DNA from: Methanosarcina sp.
Lineage (GTDB): Archaea > Halobacteriota > Methanosarcinia > Methanosarcinales > Methanosarcinaceae
NCBI RefSeq assembly: GCF_028693135.1
Contig: NZ_JAQUVZ010000036.1
Span: 1-36,667, forward strand
Length of the DNA: 36,667 nucleotides
Reading direction: 5' to 3'
Shown: piece after piece, positions 13,624-22,389 of the stretch
Position numbering within the stretch: the stretch's first letter is position 1
Layout: every line of letters begins with the position of its first letter
Translations under genes and position numbers: made by a program
The notes under the pieces: generated by a model
What the model was told of the DNA's origin: nothing
The model's database searches: none
Seen by the model: the letters and a program-made list of their open reading frames with translations, nothing else

Positions 13624-16341
13624 TCAGGCCTTTGCCACCACTATATAATTGTTTTTTGTTGTCGTAGTGCTGCCTGCTGAATTGGTTACTGTCAGCTTTA
13701 TCGTGTAACTGCCTGCTGCTGAATATGTATGCTTTGGATTCTGGATTGTTGAAGTAGTTCCGTCTCCGAAACTCCAGTTCCATGCAGTAGGCGAACCTGT
13801 AGAACTGTCCTTAAAGTACACATTCAGGGGTGCAGTTCCTGACCTCGGAGAGCCCCAGCAGTTTATAACTGGTTTTTGTGCAGTTGTCTCTGCAGTTATT
13901 GCAGTTATATAACTGGATTTTGTCACCGTATTGCTGCCTGCAGCATTGCTTACCGTAAGTGTTACCGTATAGCTCCCTGCAGCCGAATATGTATGTGTTG
14001 GGCTCTTCTGAGTTGAACTGGTTCCGTCTCCGAAATTCCAGCTCCATGCTGTTGGAGTTCCTGTACTGGTGTCAGTAAAGGTTACATCCAGAGGTGAATT
14101 TCCGGAAGTAGGAGATGCCGAAAACGCAGCAACAGGAGTTTGTGCAGCTGTTCCTGTAACTGTCATGTAATTGTACTTTGATAGCACAGTACTGCCGGCT
14201 GCATTGCTTGCTGTCAGCTTTATCACGTAATTTCCTGCTGCTGAATATATATGCGTTGGATTCTGTTCTGTTGAAGATGCTCCGTCTCCGAAATCCCAGT
14301 TCCATGCTGTGGGTGCTCCTGTAGTAATGTCCTTAAAGGTCACACTCAGCGGCGCATTTCCTGATCTCGGGGTGCCCCAGAAGTTTACGACTGGCTTTTG
14401 TGCAGTTGTCCCTGCAGTTATATAACCGGACTTTGTTGCCGTATTGCTGCCTGCAGCATTAGTTGCTGTAAGCGTTACTGTGTAGGTTCCTGCTGTTGAA
14501 TATGTGTGTTTTGGGTTCTGGATTGCTGAATTAGCCCCATCTCCGAAATTCCAGCTCCATGCTGTTGGAGTTCCTGTACTGGTGTCAGTAAAGGTTACAT
14601 CCATAGGTGAATTCCCGGAAGTGGGGGATGCCGAAAACGCAGCAACCGGCGTTTGTGCCGCCGCCGCTCCTACACTTATGTAATTTGTCTTTGTTGCTGT
14701 ATTGCTGCCTGCGGCATTAGTTGCTGTAAGCGTTACTGTGTAGGTTCCTGCTGTTGAATACGTGTGTACAGGGTTCTGGATTGCTGAATTAGTCCCATCT
14801 CCGAAATTCCAGCTCCATGCTGTTGGAGTTCCTGTACTGGTGTCAGTAAAGGTTACATCCATAGGTGAATTTCCAGAAGTAGGGGATGCCGAAAACGCAG
14901 CAACTGGCGTTTGTGCAGCTGTTCCTGTCACTGTTAAGTAATAGTACTTTGTTAGCGTATTGCTGCCTGCAGCATTGGTTGCTGTCAACTTTATCGTGTA
15001 GCGTCCTGCGGATGAATATATATGCGTTGGATTCTGGTCTGTTGAATATGTTCCGTCTCCGAAATCCCAGTTCCAGGTAGTAGGCACTCCTGTAGTAATG
15101 TCTTTAAAAGCCACATTCAGGGGCGCATCTCCTGATCTTGGGGTGCCCCAGAAGTTTACGACCGGTTTTTGCGGGGTTGTTACAATTATATAGTTTTCTT
15201 TTGTTTTTGTGTCGGTTCCAGCCGCATTGCTTGCTGTAAGTGTTACTGTGTAACTTCCGGCTGCTGAATAGGTATGCACTGGATTTTTCTGGTTTGAAGA
15301 TGTCCCATCTCCAAAACTCCAGTTCCACGCAGTGGATGTTCCTGTGCTTGTATCAGTAAATAAAACATCCAGAGGCATGTCTCCTGAGGTCACATTGCTG
15401 TTGAAATCCGCATCAGGGGCTGCCGGGTTGGATGGGTTTACAAGAGGAAGGTAATCTGAGTATATGCTGTCTGGTATATTGTATTTGGAGTCGGAAATTC
15501 CATCTCCATCCTTGTCCACTGCGGTATCGGAAAAGCCTGTGCCACCAGGTTTTCCCCAGAAGTTCCCGCCAATATAGGTCCCATGAATTATGTTTTTGCC
15601 GGCGGTTTTTGTAGTATTATAGGCATTTCCGGATCCGCTTTTAATGGTCATAGCGGTGTTATTGAAATAGTTGTTATAAACGAGGTTTCTGTCACTCAGG
15701 CCGCAAACATAGAGCCCTAAAACACTGTTCGAAGTCACGGTGTTGCCTGAAAGCGTATTATCATCAGAGGAGCCAATATGGATGCCACGGGCGTCGTTAG
15801 AAGCCGTATTTCCGGAAATGGTATTTTTGCTGGAGCTCCCAAGCACAATTCCATAATAGCCGTTATTCGTAATTGTGTTTTTCGAGACGGTGCACCCTTT
15901 GGAACTTACAAGATAAATTCCACGCCCGTTGCTCATGAGCTTGTTGTTCTCAATTATACAATTATTGCATCCGGACAGATAAATTCCTGAATAGCTGGAC
16001 CCACTTGCTCCAATAGCTTTAATCCCGCTAATTTTTACATCATTCGCCTGTACGGAAAGTACATTGACTGTTGAGCTTTTAGCTTTAATTATTGTATTAT
16101 CAGGTTTTCCTGACTCCGACCTGATAGTGAGGCTATCTTTAGATATTATGATATTTTCGGTATAGGTCCCGGGTTTTATGGTTATTACATCACCTGATAT
16201 TGCATTGTTTACGGCAGTTTGTACTGAATCTCCTGGCTGGACAATTATCTCAGCCGCTGCTCCAATACCTGCAACTAATAGCAAAATGAGAAAAGCAATT
16301 AGTAAAACGATTCCTTTATTTCGAATTTCAAATTCCTCCAT
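13624..16341 (-). CDS. Secreted beta-helix (NosD-like) protein with seven PKD domains
   Basis: 905 aa. The N-terminus has a signal peptide (hydrophobic core IVLLIAFLILLLVAGIGA, about 11-30). Residues about 32-300 form a right-handed parallel beta-helix of NosD/PbH1 repeats (NNCIIENN, GCTVSKNTI and similar) closed by a DKDGDGISDSKY calcium-site-like motif. From about 310, seven PKD domains of about 85 aa follow, each with the WxWxFGDG motif. Two alternate types open VVNFWGTPRSG or VAAFSASPTSG. PKD domains are beta-sandwich adhesion or spacer modules. Unlike its two neighbours, it has no PGF-CTERM anchor and ends soon after the last PKD, so it may be released or held non-covalently. The assigned ATG lacks a good upstream Shine-Dalgarno. 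It is first in a row of three paralogues. Confidence 0.85.
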   Translation of the reverse strand: MEEFEIRNKGIVLLIAFLILLLVAGIGAAAEIIVQPGDSVQTAVNNAISGDVITIKPGTYTENIIISKDSLTIRSESGKPDNTIIKAKSSTVNVLSVQANDVKISGIKAIGASGSSYSGIYLSGCNNCIIENNKLMSNGRGIYLVSSKGCTVSKNTITNNGYYGIVLGSSSKNTISGNTASNDARGIHIGSSDDNTLSGNTVTSNSVLGLYVCGLSDRNLVYNNYFNNTAMTIKSGSGNAYNTTKTAGKNIIHGTYIGGNFWGKPGGTGFSDTAVDKDGDGISDSKYNIPDSIYSDYLPLVNPSNPAAPDADFNSNVTSGDMPLDVLFTDTSTGTSTAWNWSFGDGTSSNQKNPVHTYSAAGSYTVTLTASNAAGTDTKTKENYIIVTTPQKPVVNFWGTPRSGDAPLNVAFKDITTGVPTTWNWDFGDGTYSTDQNPTHIYSSAGRYTIKLTATNAAGSNTLTKYYYLTVTGTAAQTPVAAFSASPTSGNSPMDVTFTDTSTGTPTAWSWNFGDGTNSAIQNPVHTYSTAGTYTVTLTATNAAGSNTATKTNYISVGAAAAQTPVAAFSASPTSGNSPMDVTFTDTSTGTPTAWSWNFGDGANSAIQNPKHTYSTAGTYTVTLTATNAAGSNTATKSGYITAGTTAQKPVVNFWGTPRSGNAPLSVTFKDITTGAPTAWNWDFGDGASSTEQNPTHIYSAAGNYVIKLTASNAAGSTVLSKYNYMTVTGTAAQTPVAAFSASPTSGNSPLDVTFTDTSTGTPTAWSWNFGDGTSSTQKSPTHTYSAAGSYTVTLTVSNAAGSNTVTKSSYITAITAETTAQKPVINCWGSPRSGTAPLNVYFKDSSTGSPTAWNWSFGDGTTSTIQNPKHTYSAAGSYTIKLTVTNSAGSTTTTKNNYIVVAKA
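13880..14905. repeat. Near-identical PKD-encoding DNA repeats
   Basis: A block of about 106 bp starting ctccgaaattccagctcc and ending gcagcaac occurs three times almost unchanged (about 14027-14134, 14541-14646, 14797-14904), inside PKD repeats 6, 4 and 3. PKD repeats 3 and 4 are nearly identical throughout. The low divergence suggests recent duplication or gene conversion between domains. Confidence 0.85.
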
Positions 16342-16540
16342 CCATTCAAGAAAGTTAGGGGTGACAGCTGTATCAGGGGTGAAAATTGTATTATTAGTAA
16401 TTCATGAAAACATATACTCAATGTCCAATGAATGTCCAATAAATGTACAAATGTAAAGCTCTGCGTTTGAGCTGAATTTATCTCTACTCCAGAGTAAAAT
16501 CCCTGCGTCAATCACTTTAACTACGCGGGAATGTATATAA

Positions 16541-16580
16541 ACCAATATAAATATATTGATTTAAATTAGTCCTTTTATAA
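16541..16580 (-). promoter_or_regulatory. Conserved promoter block upstream of surface-protein gene 1
   Basis: About 32 of 40 bases match the block at 19571-19610 upstream of gene 2. Read on minus, the core is ATCAATATATTTATAT, a TATA-type element, about 200 bases before the start codon. This implies a long 5' leader of roughly 150 bases or more in both genes. Confidence 0.5.
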
Positions 16581-16795
16581 AACTAAAAAACAGCATCCAG
16601 ATCAGTAAAGTAATCCTTTGGTTGTAAGGCAATAATTAGTTTTTTAACTTCGTTAAACAGTTCCCCATATTATATTCATATTTTTTTTATTAACAATCTG
16701 CCAGTCTCTTATGGAGTAAAGAATTCATATGGATTCAGAAATCAAGGAAAAAAGCTGAGAAAATTGGATCTTTAAAAATGGGATATGTAGTCTAC

Positions 16796-16875
16796 GGGCT
16801 GTGTAGAAAAATAGGTCTGTAGAAAATGGGCTGTGTAGAAAAATAGGTCTGTAGAAAATGGGCTGTGTAGAAAAT
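16796..16875. repeat. 32-bp tandem repeat, 2.5 copies
   Basis: Two perfect 32-base units (16796-16827, 16828-16859) starting gggctgtgtagaaaaatagg, and half of a third (16860-16875). Non-coding, in the 3' region of surface-protein gene 2. Confidence 0.95.
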
Positions 16876-16877
16876 GG

Positions 16878-16900
16878 GATGAAGGGATAAACCCTTCATC
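16878..16900 (-). terminator. Hairpin downstream of surface-protein gene 2
   Basis: A perfect 9-bp stem, GATGAAGGG-ATAAA-CCCTTCATC, starts about 60 bases after the TAA of the gene at 16960-19395. A weaker homologous hairpin (19727-19742) with the same CCTTCATCAATC flank follows the third paralogue. This suggests a conserved transcript end or mRNA 3' structure. Confidence 0.5.
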
Positions 16901-16959
16901 AATCGCTTTTCTGCACCAAAACCGATTCCTGGCTTTGATTTCCTTTCTTTTGTATTCTT

Positions 16960-19395
16960 TTAGCTTTTCTCCTTTCTTTTATACAGGAAAACTGCAAGAA
17001 TGCAGGCTATTCCGTAGATAATTCCAAATCCGGGCGCCTTAGTGTCTTCCCCCTGCGCAGAGGTCTGTTTAACTTCTTCCCCCATGTTTTTCACATCCTC
17101 TCCCTCAGCGGAGCGAGTTTCCTGTTCAGGCTCTGTTCCTGTTGCATCTTCTTCGGAGAGGCTTTTTGCCTTTCCTGTTATTGCAAAGGAAGAGAATCCC
17201 GGAACCTTGGCTGTGAAGTACAGGAATTCCTCGTCTTCTTCTGAGAGGTTGACTGGCAGCTGTACCCAGGCTTTGTCCTCGTACCTATTAAGGGCAATTG
17301 AAGCCCTGTCTATACTTTTATTCTGCATCCAGGACTTTTCAACTTTGAAACATAGCACAGGGTTTTCTATGTTCTTTGAGGTTGCATATCCACCGTTTCC
17401 AACCCATACGTTAAAGGATTTATATACCTCATCCGAAGGCAGTTCTGAAACAAGAACTGACTTCTTTTTTAATTCCTCGGCAATGGTTGTGGTCTTTCCA
17501 GCTGTCTTTTTTGCATCAAAGCTAACATATACAACGCAGGTTGCATTCTTTGCGAAATCAAACTCTACGGCCTTGCCATTTGTGATGTAAACCTGTGAAA
17601 GTTCTTTGGTTTCAACGTTTCTTGCAGGTTCGGGGGATCCCCCTCCGCCACCGCCACCGCTGCTGTGACTGCTTCCTCCGGAACTCCTCTCTTTCAGCAC
17701 CTCTATTTCGAGAGTTTTTGAAACCGCGCCGTTTTCATTGCTTACCGTCAGGTTTACAGTATAGGTTCCTGGGACTTCATACACATAAACCGGATTTTGG
17801 ATGGTAGAATCAGGCTGCCCGTTATTATCAAAGTCCCAGCTCCATGAAACCACATTTTGTGATAGGTAGGTAAACTGGATCGCAAGAGGGGCAAGACCCT
17901 GAGTGGCGTTGGTACCGAAATCTGCAACAGGAAGTGCTAGTTCAGGGGGTTGAAGGGCAGTTATCGAACCTGTTTTAGAAGACCCCCCGTTTGCATTGCT
18001 TGCTGTGAGCGTTACCGTGTAAGCTCCTGCTGAGTAGTATGTATGTACAGGGTTCTGGTCTGTTGAAGTAGTTTCGTCTCCGAAGTCCCATTCCCATGCA
18101 GTGGGAGTTCCTGTACTTTTGTCAGTAAAACTCACATCAAGTGGGGCTTCTCCTGAGGTTACATCGCTGCTGAAATCAGCAACCGGAGGTACTGGTTCGG
18201 GTTCAGGCTCAGAGGCCTGGGTGACGATTATCGTACCTTCTTTTGAGGATGCTCCGTCTTCATTGCTTACTGTAAGCGTTGTCGTGTAAGTTCCTGCTGA
18301 GGTGTATATGTGTACGGGGTTCTTATCTGTTGAAACGTTTCCGTCTCCGAAATCCCAGTCCCATGTAGTGGGATCTCCTGTGCTTTTGTCAGTAAATTTG
18401 ACCGTCAGTGGGGCTTCCCCTGAGGTAACATCGCCGCTGAAGTCTGCAACCGGGGGTACGGGTTCAGGCAAGCTAGACGGGTATACAAGAGGCAGGTAAT
18501 CTACGTATGAGCTGCTTGGCAGAGTGTATGTAGAGTCGGAAATTCCATCTCCATCATTATCTACTGCTGTGTCGGAGAAACCTGTTCCATCCGGTTTTCC
18601 CCAGTAGTTTCCTCCTATGTAAGGACCGTCAACAATATTCGGGCCTGAGGTTTTTGTAGTATTAAATCTACTTCCTGACCCGGTTTTAATGGATATTCCG
18701 GTGTTATTGAAGTAGTTATTATAAATCAGATTTCGGTCACACAAGCTACAACTATAAAATCCTACATTATTGTTCAAAGTGACAGTATTGCCTGAGACGG
18801 TGTTATCGTCAGAGCTGCCCAAATAGATGCCGCGCTCGGAATTGGTAACCGTATTTCCAGATATGGTGTTGCCTTTTGAACTCTCAAGCAAAATCCCATA
18901 ATAACCGCAATTTATAACTGTATTACCTGAGACCGTGCACTCTGTAGAACTTACGAGATAAATTCCGCGCCCGTTAACTGTGAGTTTGTTTTGTTCAATT
19001 ACACAGTTATTGCATCCGGATAGACGTATTCCTGAGGCGCTTTGTGCAGTTGCTGCAGCAGCTGTTATGCCGCTAATTCTGACATTATCTGCCTGCACAA
19101 AGATCGCATTGTCTGTTGCAGTTTTAGCCTTAATCATTGTATTGTCAGGGTTTCCGGAAGCCGACCTGATAGTTAATCCATCTGTATATATTTTGACATT
19201 TTCGGTATAATTCCCGGGTTGTATGGTAATTACATCCTCTGAACTTGCATTGTCAACAGCAGCCTGTATCGAATCTCCTTTCTGGACTGTAATCTCAGTC
19301 GCAGTTCCGATTCCAACACATAATATCAAAATGAGAAAAGCAATTAGTAAAACGGTTAATTTATTTTTAATTTCTAATTCCTCCGTCCATTCCAA
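16960..19395 (-). CDS. Surface protein: beta-helix, three PKD domains, PGF-pre-PGF domain, PGF-CTERM anchor
   Basis: 811 aa. It has a signal peptide (core LTVLLIAFLILILCVGIG), a NosD-like beta-helix (about 34-300), and PKD domains beginning at about 313, 402 and 485. A Ser/Gly linker with a run of seven glycines follows, then the PGF-pre-PGF domain (about 590-750; YITNGKAVEFDF, NPVLCFKVEKSW, FSSFAITGKAK). It ends in PGFGIIYGIACILAVFLYKRK plus EKS, a PGF-CTERM signal. It is probably anchored in the outer leaflet after archaeosortase A processing. The start at 19395 is TTG, and no better start is seen. The N-terminus aligns in frame with paralogue 1 (EWxEE[F/L]EI[R/K]NK). It ends with TAA. Role inferred: adhesion or cell-surface structure. 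Confidence 0.87.
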   Translation of the reverse strand: MEWTEELEIKNKLTVLLIAFLILILCVGIGTATEITVQKGDSIQAAVDNASSEDVITIQPGNYTENVKIYTDGLTIRSASGNPDNTMIKAKTATDNAIFVQADNVRISGITAAAATAQSASGIRLSGCNNCVIEQNKLTVNGRGIYLVSSTECTVSGNTVINCGYYGILLESSKGNTISGNTVTNSERGIYLGSSDDNTVSGNTVTLNNNVGFYSCSLCDRNLIYNNYFNNTGISIKTGSGSRFNTTKTSGPNIVDGPYIGGNYWGKPDGTGFSDTAVDNDGDGISDSTYTLPSSSYVDYLPLVYPSSLPEPVPPVADFSGDVTSGEAPLTVKFTDKSTGDPTTWDWDFGDGNVSTDKNPVHIYTSAGTYTTTLTVSNEDGASSKEGTIIVTQASEPEPEPVPPVADFSSDVTSGEAPLDVSFTDKSTGTPTAWEWDFGDETTSTDQNPVHTYYSAGAYTVTLTASNANGGSSKTGSITALQPPELALPVADFGTNATQGLAPLAIQFTYLSQNVVSWSWDFDNNGQPDSTIQNPVYVYEVPGTYTVNLTVSNENGAVSKTLEIEVLKERSSGGSSHSSGGGGGGGSPEPARNVETKELSQVYITNGKAVEFDFAKNATCVVYVSFDAKKTAGKTTTIAEELKKKSVLVSELPSDEVYKSFNVWVGNGGYATSKNIENPVLCFKVEKSWMQNKSIDRASIALNRYEDKAWVQLPVNLSEEDEEFLYFTAKVPGFSSFAITGKAKSLSEEDATGTEPEQETRSAEGEDVKNMGEEVKQTSAQGEDTKAPGFGIIYGIACILAVFLYKRKEKS

Positions 19396-19808
19396 AAGTT
19401 GGGGGTGATATCTGTATTATGAATAAAATTCCATTTATTGCAGCAAATCTGAATATTCGTCATATTCTAATAATGTACAAATCTAACTCTAAATATTTAA
19501 TAACTGAATTTATTCTGTCAATCTATAACTCTTTATATTAATAATTTGTATTAAATTGGAAATAATGTTAACTGATATAAATATACTGATTTAGATTAAT
19601 ACTTTTAAATAGAGATAAAATATGTCATATGAGGTTGAAGTCCGGAGCACATCTGGATAAAAGAGTTACGGGATAAAAACCAGGATAAAAGATTGATCCG
19701 AACCCGAAAATGTGGAAAAGCAGGGCGAAGGGTGAAACCTTCATCAATCATTTTCCTGTGTTGAAATCTGCACTCAGTTTTTGATTTGATTTCCTTTCTT
19801 TTTTATTC
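19396..19808. other. Intergenic region between second and third surface-protein genes
   Basis: No gene. It has the 5' leader and promoter block (19571-19610) of gene 2, then the 3' region of the third gene with a small hairpin (GAAGG-N6-CCTTC at 19727-19742). The flank CCTTCATCAATC is shared with the 3' region of gene 2, so the duplication that made the paralogues included 3' non-coding DNA. Confidence 0.55.
19571..19610 (-). promoter_or_regulatory. Conserved promoter block upstream of surface-protein gene 2
   Basis: Homologous to 16541-16580 (about 80 % identical over 40 bases). The minus-strand core is ATCAGTATATTTATAT, about 176 bases upstream of the start codon. Confidence 0.5.
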
Positions 19809-21620
19809 TTAGCTTTTCTACTTTCTTTTATACAGGAAAATGGCGAACAGGCATATTATCCCGTATACTATTTCAAATCCTGGAGCCTTCGTATCTCCTT
19901 CCTGCGCAGCGCTCTGTCCCACTTCTTCTCCCATGTTTTTTATCTCTTCATCTGCGAGTCGAGTTTCCTGTTCAGGCTCTGAGCCTGATGCGTTTTCTCC
20001 GGAGAGGCTTTTTGCTTTTCCTGTTATTGCAAATGAGGAAAATGCCGGAACTTCGTTTGTGAAGTACAGGAATTCCTTATCTTCTCCTGAGAGGCTGGCT
20101 GGCACTGGTTCCCATTTTTTATCGCTGTATCTGTTCAGGGTAATGGAAGTCTGGCCTACCTTTTTAGCCTTTATCCATGATTTTTCAACCTTGAAACAGA
20201 TGACCGGGTTTTCGATGTTCTTTGAGGTTGCAAATCCACTGTTGCCAACCCAGACATTAAAGAACTTATATACTTCTCCGGCAGGCAGTTCTGAAACAAG
20301 AGCTGACTTATCTTTTAATTCCTCAACAATCGTTGTGGTCTTGCCCACTGTATTTTTTGCATCGAAACTCACGTATACGACACAGGTTGCATTCTTTGTG
20401 AAGCCAAACTTTACGGCTTTGCCGTTTGTGATGAACACCTGTGAAAGTTCTTTGGTTCCAACGTTTCTTGCAGGTTCAGGGGAGCCTCCGCCGCCAACAC
20501 TGCTGCTGCTCTCCCCACTGCTCTTCTTCTCTACATCTATTGTCGTAGTTTTTGAGGACGTGCCGTTCAGGTTGCTAACTGTCAGGTTAACGTTATAATT
20601 TCCTGGAATTTCATAGACGTGAACAAAGCTTGCCTCGTTTGAGTCCTCTATTCCGTCATTGTTAACATCCCAGCTTCTTGATGTTGCATCCTGTGAAAGG
20701 TCTGTAAAGAGGACCGAAAGAGGAGCATTTCCGCTGGTGGTGTTAGTTTTGGAATTTGCTACAGGGAGTGCCGTTGCAGGCTTTTCAGCAGGAGCTACAA
20801 GAGGTAGATAGTCAATGTTTACCTCATTCAATTTGTATGGTACATCAGCAAACCCGTCTTCGTTGGCATCAGAGTTCGTCTGGGAAAAACCATCTTCTGC
20901 AGGTGTTGCCCAATAATTTCCACCAATATAAGGGCCTCCAACAATGTTTTTTCCCGGTGTTTTCGTAGTATTCCAGGTACTGATATCAACAAATTGTACA
21001 TTTCGGGTGTTGTTGAAATTATTATTATAAATTAGAGTACCATAAGAATCTACCATATCTAATCCTGTTTCGCAGTTTGAAATTTTATTGCCACTTAATT
21101 TATTATCATTACTGGACCAGAGTAAAATTCCTTCACTGCAATCAAAAATATAATTATTAATGATTGAGCCTCTTCCCCCTTCATTCCCATTGTAAACTCC
21201 AATGCCTGTATGAAAATTAGAAATTTTATTATTCTGAATAGTACAGAAGAAAGAAGAGTCGATAACGCCTGAGTAACCTGAGCTACCCGTGCCTATTATA
21301 TTGAAGCTCTTAATTGTAATATTATCAGCATTCAAATTGAAAGCATTCTCTGTAGCTCTGATTGTAGCATTATATTGATTGCTTGATACAAGAACCAGAT
21401 CTGGCACTGTAATGGTAATGTTTCCAGGATAAATTCCGGGATTGACAATAATCGTATCTCCAGAACTTGCATCATTCACCGCAGCCTGTATTGTTGCATA
21501 ATCTGCGGGTCCGTCCTCGTCCACAGAAATTGTTGCAGCTGATGCACTCCCTACGATAACCAGGTAAAGTGCAAAAATTACTACAAATAAAATTATACCA
21601 TTTCTTTTTACTTTCTACAC
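19809..21620 (-). CDS. Surface protein: beta-helix, one PKD, PGF-pre-PGF, PGF-CTERM; two in-frame UAG codons (candidate pyrrolysine)
   Basis: 603 codons if UAG is sense. With UAG as stop, only 19818-21524 (568 aa from GTG) is open and it lacks a signal peptide. Upstream in the same frame lies a perfect signal peptide (KVKRNGIILFVVIFALYL, then VIVGSASAA). The only start codon before it is GTG 21620, followed at once by TAG (21615-21617). GAGGGG sits six bases before the GTG. At the 3' end TAG (19818-19820) is followed by AAA AGC TAA. The paralogue at 16960 has GAG AAA AGC TAA there, so one base change made E into UAG. Domains: beta-helix to about 255, one PKD at about 285-370, PGF-pre-PGF, and the PGF-CTERM. 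Alternative: a decaying gene with two nonsense mutations. Confidence 0.75.
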
Positions 21621-22389
21621 AATAAACCCCTCTAAATATATTTTTGCATTTCATTCTAATTTATATTGCCAGTTACCGCGCCATATTATTGTAATTTATT
21701 AGAATTTACTCTTGTCTAATGCGGCTCTATTTTTATAGTATATAAATAAAGCTTTCAGCCCAACTTTTTGATTTTTAATATTTATTCCTTTTACAGGATT
21801 AGTACTGTTATATAATATTAACTAACTCATGTTATATTATTTCAATAAGTTCTCCCCTTTTCTCATTGTCTCTGTTCCTTAATAAAAGTCTCAATGAAAA
21901 GTCTCAATGAAAAGTCTCAATAAAAAGTCTCAATAAAAAGTCTCAATAAAATGTCTCAATGAAAAGTCTCAATGAAAAGTCTCAATAAAATGTCTCAATA
22001 AAAAGTCTCAATAAAAAGTCTCAATAAAAAGAGCACTATATTTTCGAAAGTAATCCATTCAAAATAATTCGGATATTTATCTCCACAGGTGGGAAGACCC
22101 CTTTCTCAACAGTTCCGGCTTTACCGGAAATGGCAGGGAGAGGTAGTTTACTTGAAATTAGAGGGGAAAATAGATATAGACTTTGAGGAGTTATAAAAAA
22201 GGAACTAAAATTCTCGCTCAAAGAATTCTGTTGTGAGTGGGAGAGTTACGCTTGAAACTGTGAATACAGGATTCCTCAAATATAATGAAGTTTATATTTT
22301 ATCAAACCATACTGGAAATATAACGAAGATACATAACATTTATTATTCATATAAACAAATGATACCGTACACATCGGGGGATAAAAAAG
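21621..22389. other. Divergent intergenic region with repeat array
   Basis: It holds the GAGGGG ribosome binding site (21627-21632) of the minus gene and a minus TATA-like TTTATATACTATAAAAA near 21733-21750. It also contains the 13-bp array, a short hairpin TTCCGG-CTTTA-CCGGAA (22113-22129), and the ribosome binding site GGGGGAT for the plus gene at 22390. At 22068-22196 one plus frame reads like a protein end (see findings) but has no start, so no gene is called. Confidence 0.5.
21888..22030. repeat. 13-bp tandem repeat, 11 copies
   Basis: Eleven consecutive 13-base units, gtctcaat[a/g]aaa[a/t], exactly 143 bases. Three sequence versions alternate in blocks, as expected from slippage and unequal crossing-over. 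There are no spacers, so it is not a CRISPR array. It lies in the gap between divergent genes (third surface protein and the gerW-like gene). Confidence 0.95.

Follow-up and report, generated by a model that had tools for sequence, protein, structure and literature searches.

Does Methanosarcina read an amber triplet as pyrrolysine (Pyl) when it forms the second codon of a surface-protein gene? The question is raised by a gene on the minus strand of the window, by which we mean the whole stretch of DNA analysed here (36,667 nucleotides; contig C60, complete, from a 4.22 Mb Methanosarcina assembly of 89 contigs). The initial annotation had described a GTG start with a ribosome-binding site six bases upstream, followed by UAG as codon 2 and by a signal peptide in the same frame, and all of these elements are present in the sequence. 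The features discussed below are, in window coordinates:

21627-21632, minus strand: Shine-Dalgarno-like GAGGGG, separated from the GTG by a 6-base spacer (TTTATT); identical in the syntenic gene of genome G011
21618-21620, minus strand: start codon GTG; GTG, ATG or TTG in homologues
21615-21617, minus strand: codon 2, TAG; Trp (TGG) in 13 subfamily leaders
21534-21614, minus strand: signal peptide KVKR...SASA-A, called by eye and by homology
19821-21614, minus strand: open frame of 598 codons with NosD/parallel beta-helix, PKD and PGF-pre-PGF domains
19821-19886, minus strand: PGF-CTERM-like tail APGFEIVYGIICLFAIFLYKRK, assigned from its motif and basic tail, with an archaeosortase in the genome
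19818-19820, minus strand: TAG at the usual stop position of the family, from the comparison of family tails
19809-19811, minus strand: next in-frame stop, TAA, two codons past the TAG, after AAA AGC
16960-19395, minus strand: tandem paralogue in which GAG replaces the stop (EKS extension), from the ORF list, tail comparison and profile search
13624-16341, minus strand: tandem paralogue with NosD and PKD repeats, from the ORF list and profile search

The reading frame and the encoded protein

Beyond the TAG at codon 2, the 598 codons of the amber gene contain no further stop or frameshift. The earliest ordinary in-frame start after this TAG is the GTG at 21522-21524, inside the mature domain, which agrees with the earlier claim that no start lies between the UAG and the mature domain. 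In the table-11 ORF list the gene begins only at this GTG (21524), so the signal peptide is lost under ordinary annotation, as had been predicted.

Profile searches placed a NosD-type beta-helix at residues about 66-238 of the protein, a PKD domain at residues 284-361 and a PGF-pre-PGF domain at residues 380-532 (TIGR04213, 196.5 bits, cut-off 28). With Pfam PF18204, the tail of the amber gene scored below the cut-off used and that of the paralogue at 16960 above it. The protein combines a signal peptide (by eye), a PGF motif, a transmembrane segment and a basic tail, and an archaeosortase (TIGR04125) was found in the genome, on contig C66; these are the features of a PGF-CTERM surface protein. 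The domains, leader and tail are those of the other PGF-CTERM/NosD/PKD surface proteins of Methanosarcina, whereas the amber second codon occurs only in the present member. In Haloferax volcanii, the C-terminus of the S-layer glycoprotein is processed by the archaeosortase ArtA (PMC4343526). As codon 2 lies within the signal peptide and the end of the tail follows the PGF motif of archaeosortase processing, any Pyl would be confined to the precursor: signal peptidase and archaeosortase should, by analogy, cut off both UAG positions and leave a mature protein without Pyl. If membrane fractions were analysed by mass spectrometry for their terminal peptides, both UAG sites would probably escape detection.

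The locus is syntenic with contig C33 of G011 and with G010, most of the flanking DNA being about 80-94% identical and dS being about 0.15-0.30 for five flanking genes. The middle part of the amber gene is closer to a paralogue on contig C59 of its own genome and to G008 than to the syntenic genes, and hence the gene is a mosaic. The three-gene NosD surface cluster as a whole (window 13624-21620) is also mosaic between species, which fits an exchange among paralogues. Near the start of the middle paralogue (window 19320-19395), the ATG of related leaders is replaced by ACG, and the closest ordinary start codon, a TTG, lies three codons further upstream. Between the amber gene and its upstream neighbour lies a tandem array (window 21884-22031) with 11.4 copies of the 13-base unit AAAAGTCTCAATA.

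Codon 2 and the C-terminal TAG in relatives

We searched 31 genomes of the genus for GAGGGGTTTATTGTGTAGAAA, the stretch that runs from the Shine-Dalgarno-like site through GTG to codon 2. It was found exactly in the window and, with one mismatch, in G011 (GAGGGGTTTATTGTGTGGAAA), so that the syntenic G011 gene differs from the window at 1 base in 21 across the start, reading GTG TGG instead of GTG TAG. The syntenic gene of G010 starts with ATG TGG. Altogether, TGG is codon 2 in 13 subfamily leaders, including those of G011 and G010 and the own-genome paralogues on C59 and C7; more distant leaders have AGG, CGG, CAG, TCG or CTG, and TAG was found at codon 2 in no other leader compared. Since the syntenic genes and the 13 leaders have TGG and none has TAG, the TAG arose on the present lineage from Trp; on this sequence comparison, it is a lineage-specific change by one G-to-A transition.

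The leader matches that of the syntenic G011 gene at 22 of 27 residues and is, by this measure, a genuine coding sequence. Five of the six differences between the two leaders change an amino acid and one is silent, hence the leader itself shows no sign of recent purifying selection. Elsewhere among the leaders, that of L268 has a TAA just upstream of its candidate start, and an AUA start is possible there.

For the C-terminus, it had been proposed that the UAG is a sense codon equal to the GAG of the paralogue at 16960, which would put a second Pyl third from the end. Of 41 distinct family tails, 25 have TAA directly behind the K/R-rich end, so that most relatives have a stop at this position and not a sense codon. 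Within the G011 cluster, one tail has the sequence KRK TAA AAA AGC TAA, with downstream bases identical to those of the amber gene, which ends in YKRK, the TAG at 19818-19820 and then AAA AGC TAA. Judged by these tails, the TAG is an ordinary stop, and a Pyl third from the C-terminal end was rejected. As TAA stands at that position in 25 of the 41 tails, GAG is the unusual state, and in the 16960 paralogue it looks like a lost stop and not like the ancestral state. In summary, the alignment of this locus in other Methanosarcina, which had been suggested for both UAGs, shows a sense codon (TGG) in place of the one at codon 2 and reveals the other as the usual family stop.

Capacity for UAG decoding and UAG-containing genes in the genome

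That the host is equipped to decode UAG, as initially assumed, is supported by a tRNA-Pyl with anticodon CUA, which adjoins PylS-, PylB-, PylC- and PylD-like frames (PylB and PylC assigned by HMM, PylS and PylD from their location and sequence similarity). The PylS-like frame (L112:7486-9129), at 547 codons, is longer than the M. mazei enzyme and has a long Ala/Pro/Ser-rich repeat linker. A scan of 1.84 Mb, or 44% of the genome, yielded 1,033 gene-like ORFs, of which 23 end in TAG. Five of these 23 run on as a single protein: three mtbB-like, one mttB-like and one aldehyde dehydrogenase (one mtbB named by HMM; the mttB and the two other mtbB by length and sequence likeness). The pylB of this genome itself ends in TAG, and TAG-terminated pylB is known in other species (PMC2933860). 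In the aldehyde dehydrogenase (L176; G000 C59:111957-113318), the in-frame TAG is codon 248, 14 residues ahead of the conserved Cys in an NAGQSC motif; close relatives mostly have CAG there, and otherwise GAG, AAG, AAA, CAA or CGG. A search for PYLIS-like RNA structure downstream of the UAG at codon 2 and of that in the aldehyde dehydrogenase found nothing unusual (z -1.3 and -0.2). Of the TAA/TGA run-on candidates from the first 1.55 Mb, ten were read; apart from an ambiguous one at C26 41492, they resembled adjacent genes or spurious extensions. A scan of coding signal for 5' interruptions produced nothing but noise.

Parallel cases occur in other genomes. The signal peptide of a PGF-tailed NosD/PKD surface protein of G014 (C36:99047-100450; L267/L287) contains a TAG; at this codon, ten close relatives from other genomes carry Leu, encoded by TTG in eight of them and by TTA in two. 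An aldehyde dehydrogenase of G016 (L198, C64) has a TAG as X in AEIIT-X-EMGKP, which is Lys in the copy of the present genome, and a NosD protein of G023 (L266, C10) has an internal TAG in an otherwise open gene; pylB is present in G014, G016 and G023. A survey of PGF-pre-PGF and NosD domains, with 300 or so matches, contained no in-frame TAG, but two TAA in one match and a TGA in one, and hence we do not conclude that TAG is enriched relative to other stops.

Origin and likely effect of the codon-2 UAG

The reading that we favour, with modest confidence, is that a leaky change from Trp to UAG at codon 2 is partly read as Pyl and is nearly neutral in one of many paralogues. In this scenario, the G-to-A transition would have turned the TGG into UAG on the present species' own lineage. 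As the cell makes Pyl-tRNA(CUA), we infer that some of the ribosomes probably insert Pyl at codon 2 and complete the protein, and partial Pyl decoding is plausible on the sequence evidence; the remaining ribosomes would terminate after one residue. In M. acetivorans, the readthrough of an amber uidA reaches 20-30% (PMC2933860). The outcome would be less of an otherwise normal precursor, from which signal peptidase would remove the Pyl-bearing signal peptide and archaeosortase would be expected to remove the tail after the PGF, both steps being deduced from the motifs. The mature surface protein would then be free of Pyl, and the change would be tolerated as nearly neutral, with no use made of Pyl chemistry. 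Likewise, readthrough of the normal stop at 19818 would add just Pyl-Lys-Ser to the cleaved tail.

The nearest precedent is Thg1 (tRNAHis guanylyltransferase) of M. acetivorans: according to PMC2933860, the amber codon was gained in that species only, Pyl was detected, and Pyl is dispensable for activity (citing Heinemann et al. 2009). As in Thg1, the amber gene has a lineage-specific in-frame amber where its orthologues have a sense codon, in a host with tRNA-Pyl and PylS/B/C/D, and its frame beyond the UAG is intact with all domains. Unlike in Thg1, where Pyl is proven by proteomics, the amber gene is known from sequence, and its UAG, as codon 2, belongs to a segment that should be removed by cleavage. 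The methylamine methyltransferases MtmB, MtbB and MttB, in which UAG is read as Pyl in the same group of organisms, include types found in the present genome (mtbB and mttB), but in these enzymes the UAG is conserved and Pyl is catalytic, whereas the codon-2 TAG is found in the present genome only and replaces Trp. The amber gene is thus best grouped with the known neutral UAG acquisition in Pyl-decoding archaea, for which Thg1 is the precedent.

The main rival, possible though we hold it for doubtful, is a recent nonsense mutation, by which the UAG would mostly terminate and leave the gene effectively silent, as a young pseudogene among the redundant members of a large family. Termination after one residue leaves no product unless the UAG is suppressed, the genome holds many paralogues (57 matches), and codon 2 is without obvious constraint (AGG, TCG, CGG or CAG in more distant leaders). 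The branch dN/dS is slightly raised: subject to the caveat of recombination, it is 0.62 (5-95% 0.35-1.40) for the N-part of the amber gene against 0.40 and 0.29 on the branches of its relatives, and 0.30 (0.19-0.71) for the C-part against 0.16 and 0.14. This also fits a relaxed constraint, and with their wide intervals the estimates are too noisy to date the change; the selection data fit a gene that was functional until recently or is still leaky, without deciding between them. Against silence, the 598 codons show neither another stop nor an indel. According to a rough neutral model, in which the indel rate is assumed, a gene silent for 0.02 substitutions per site would keep its frame intact with a probability of about 0.025; as the branch leading to the closest relatives measures roughly 0.1, any silence could only be recent.

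It is unlikely that the TAG reflects a wrong base call or misassembly at 21616, or that the sequenced strain carries a rare allele in a species that has TGG. It is a one-base difference in one strain, in a draft of 89 contigs, but the locus has a single matching place in an assembly rated as nearly complete, and a collapse of copies is unlikely because the nearest paralogue differs by 16%.

Regulatory readings have still less in their favour. An expression valve gated by Pyl, in which UAG next to the start or in the signal peptide ties the output of exported proteins to the Pyl-tRNA pool while cleavage leaves their mature form Pyl-free, would have the present gene and that on C36 of G014 as its examples, and is in our judgement quite improbable. 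We regard as slighter still the chance of a switch at this gene, by which the output of the surface protein would track the level of Pyl-tRNA, mainly during growth on methylamines. A UAG at codon 2 does put all of the product under UAG decoding, and the G014 case is a second, independent UAG in the signal peptide of a surface protein; the codon is, however, conserved in no orthologue, a lineage-specific change fits drift better, and the RNA structure downstream is not notable. Least probable of all is initiation at a non-standard codon downstream of the TAG (AUA or AUU at codons 9-10, for instance), with the UAG in the 5' untranslated region: the related leaders L021, L023 and L268 seem to be without an ordinary start near a G-rich Shine-Dalgarno-like site, but the Shine-Dalgarno here is placed for the GTG and likewise precedes the GTG TGG of G011, codons 9-10 have no such site before them, a start at these codons would leave the signal peptide without its KVKR part, and the sole nearby ATG is out of frame and stops after two codons.

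If the amber gene is not expressed, it would be a one-base pseudogene within a redundant family. If it is expressed, the leaky UAG would be a natural case in which a Pyl-decoding archaeon has acquired UAG neutrally, here at the extreme position of codon 2, and would show that annotation misses signal peptides in such genomes. The amber gene would also offer a clean test of the extent to which UAG is a sense codon in ordinary Methanosarcina genes.
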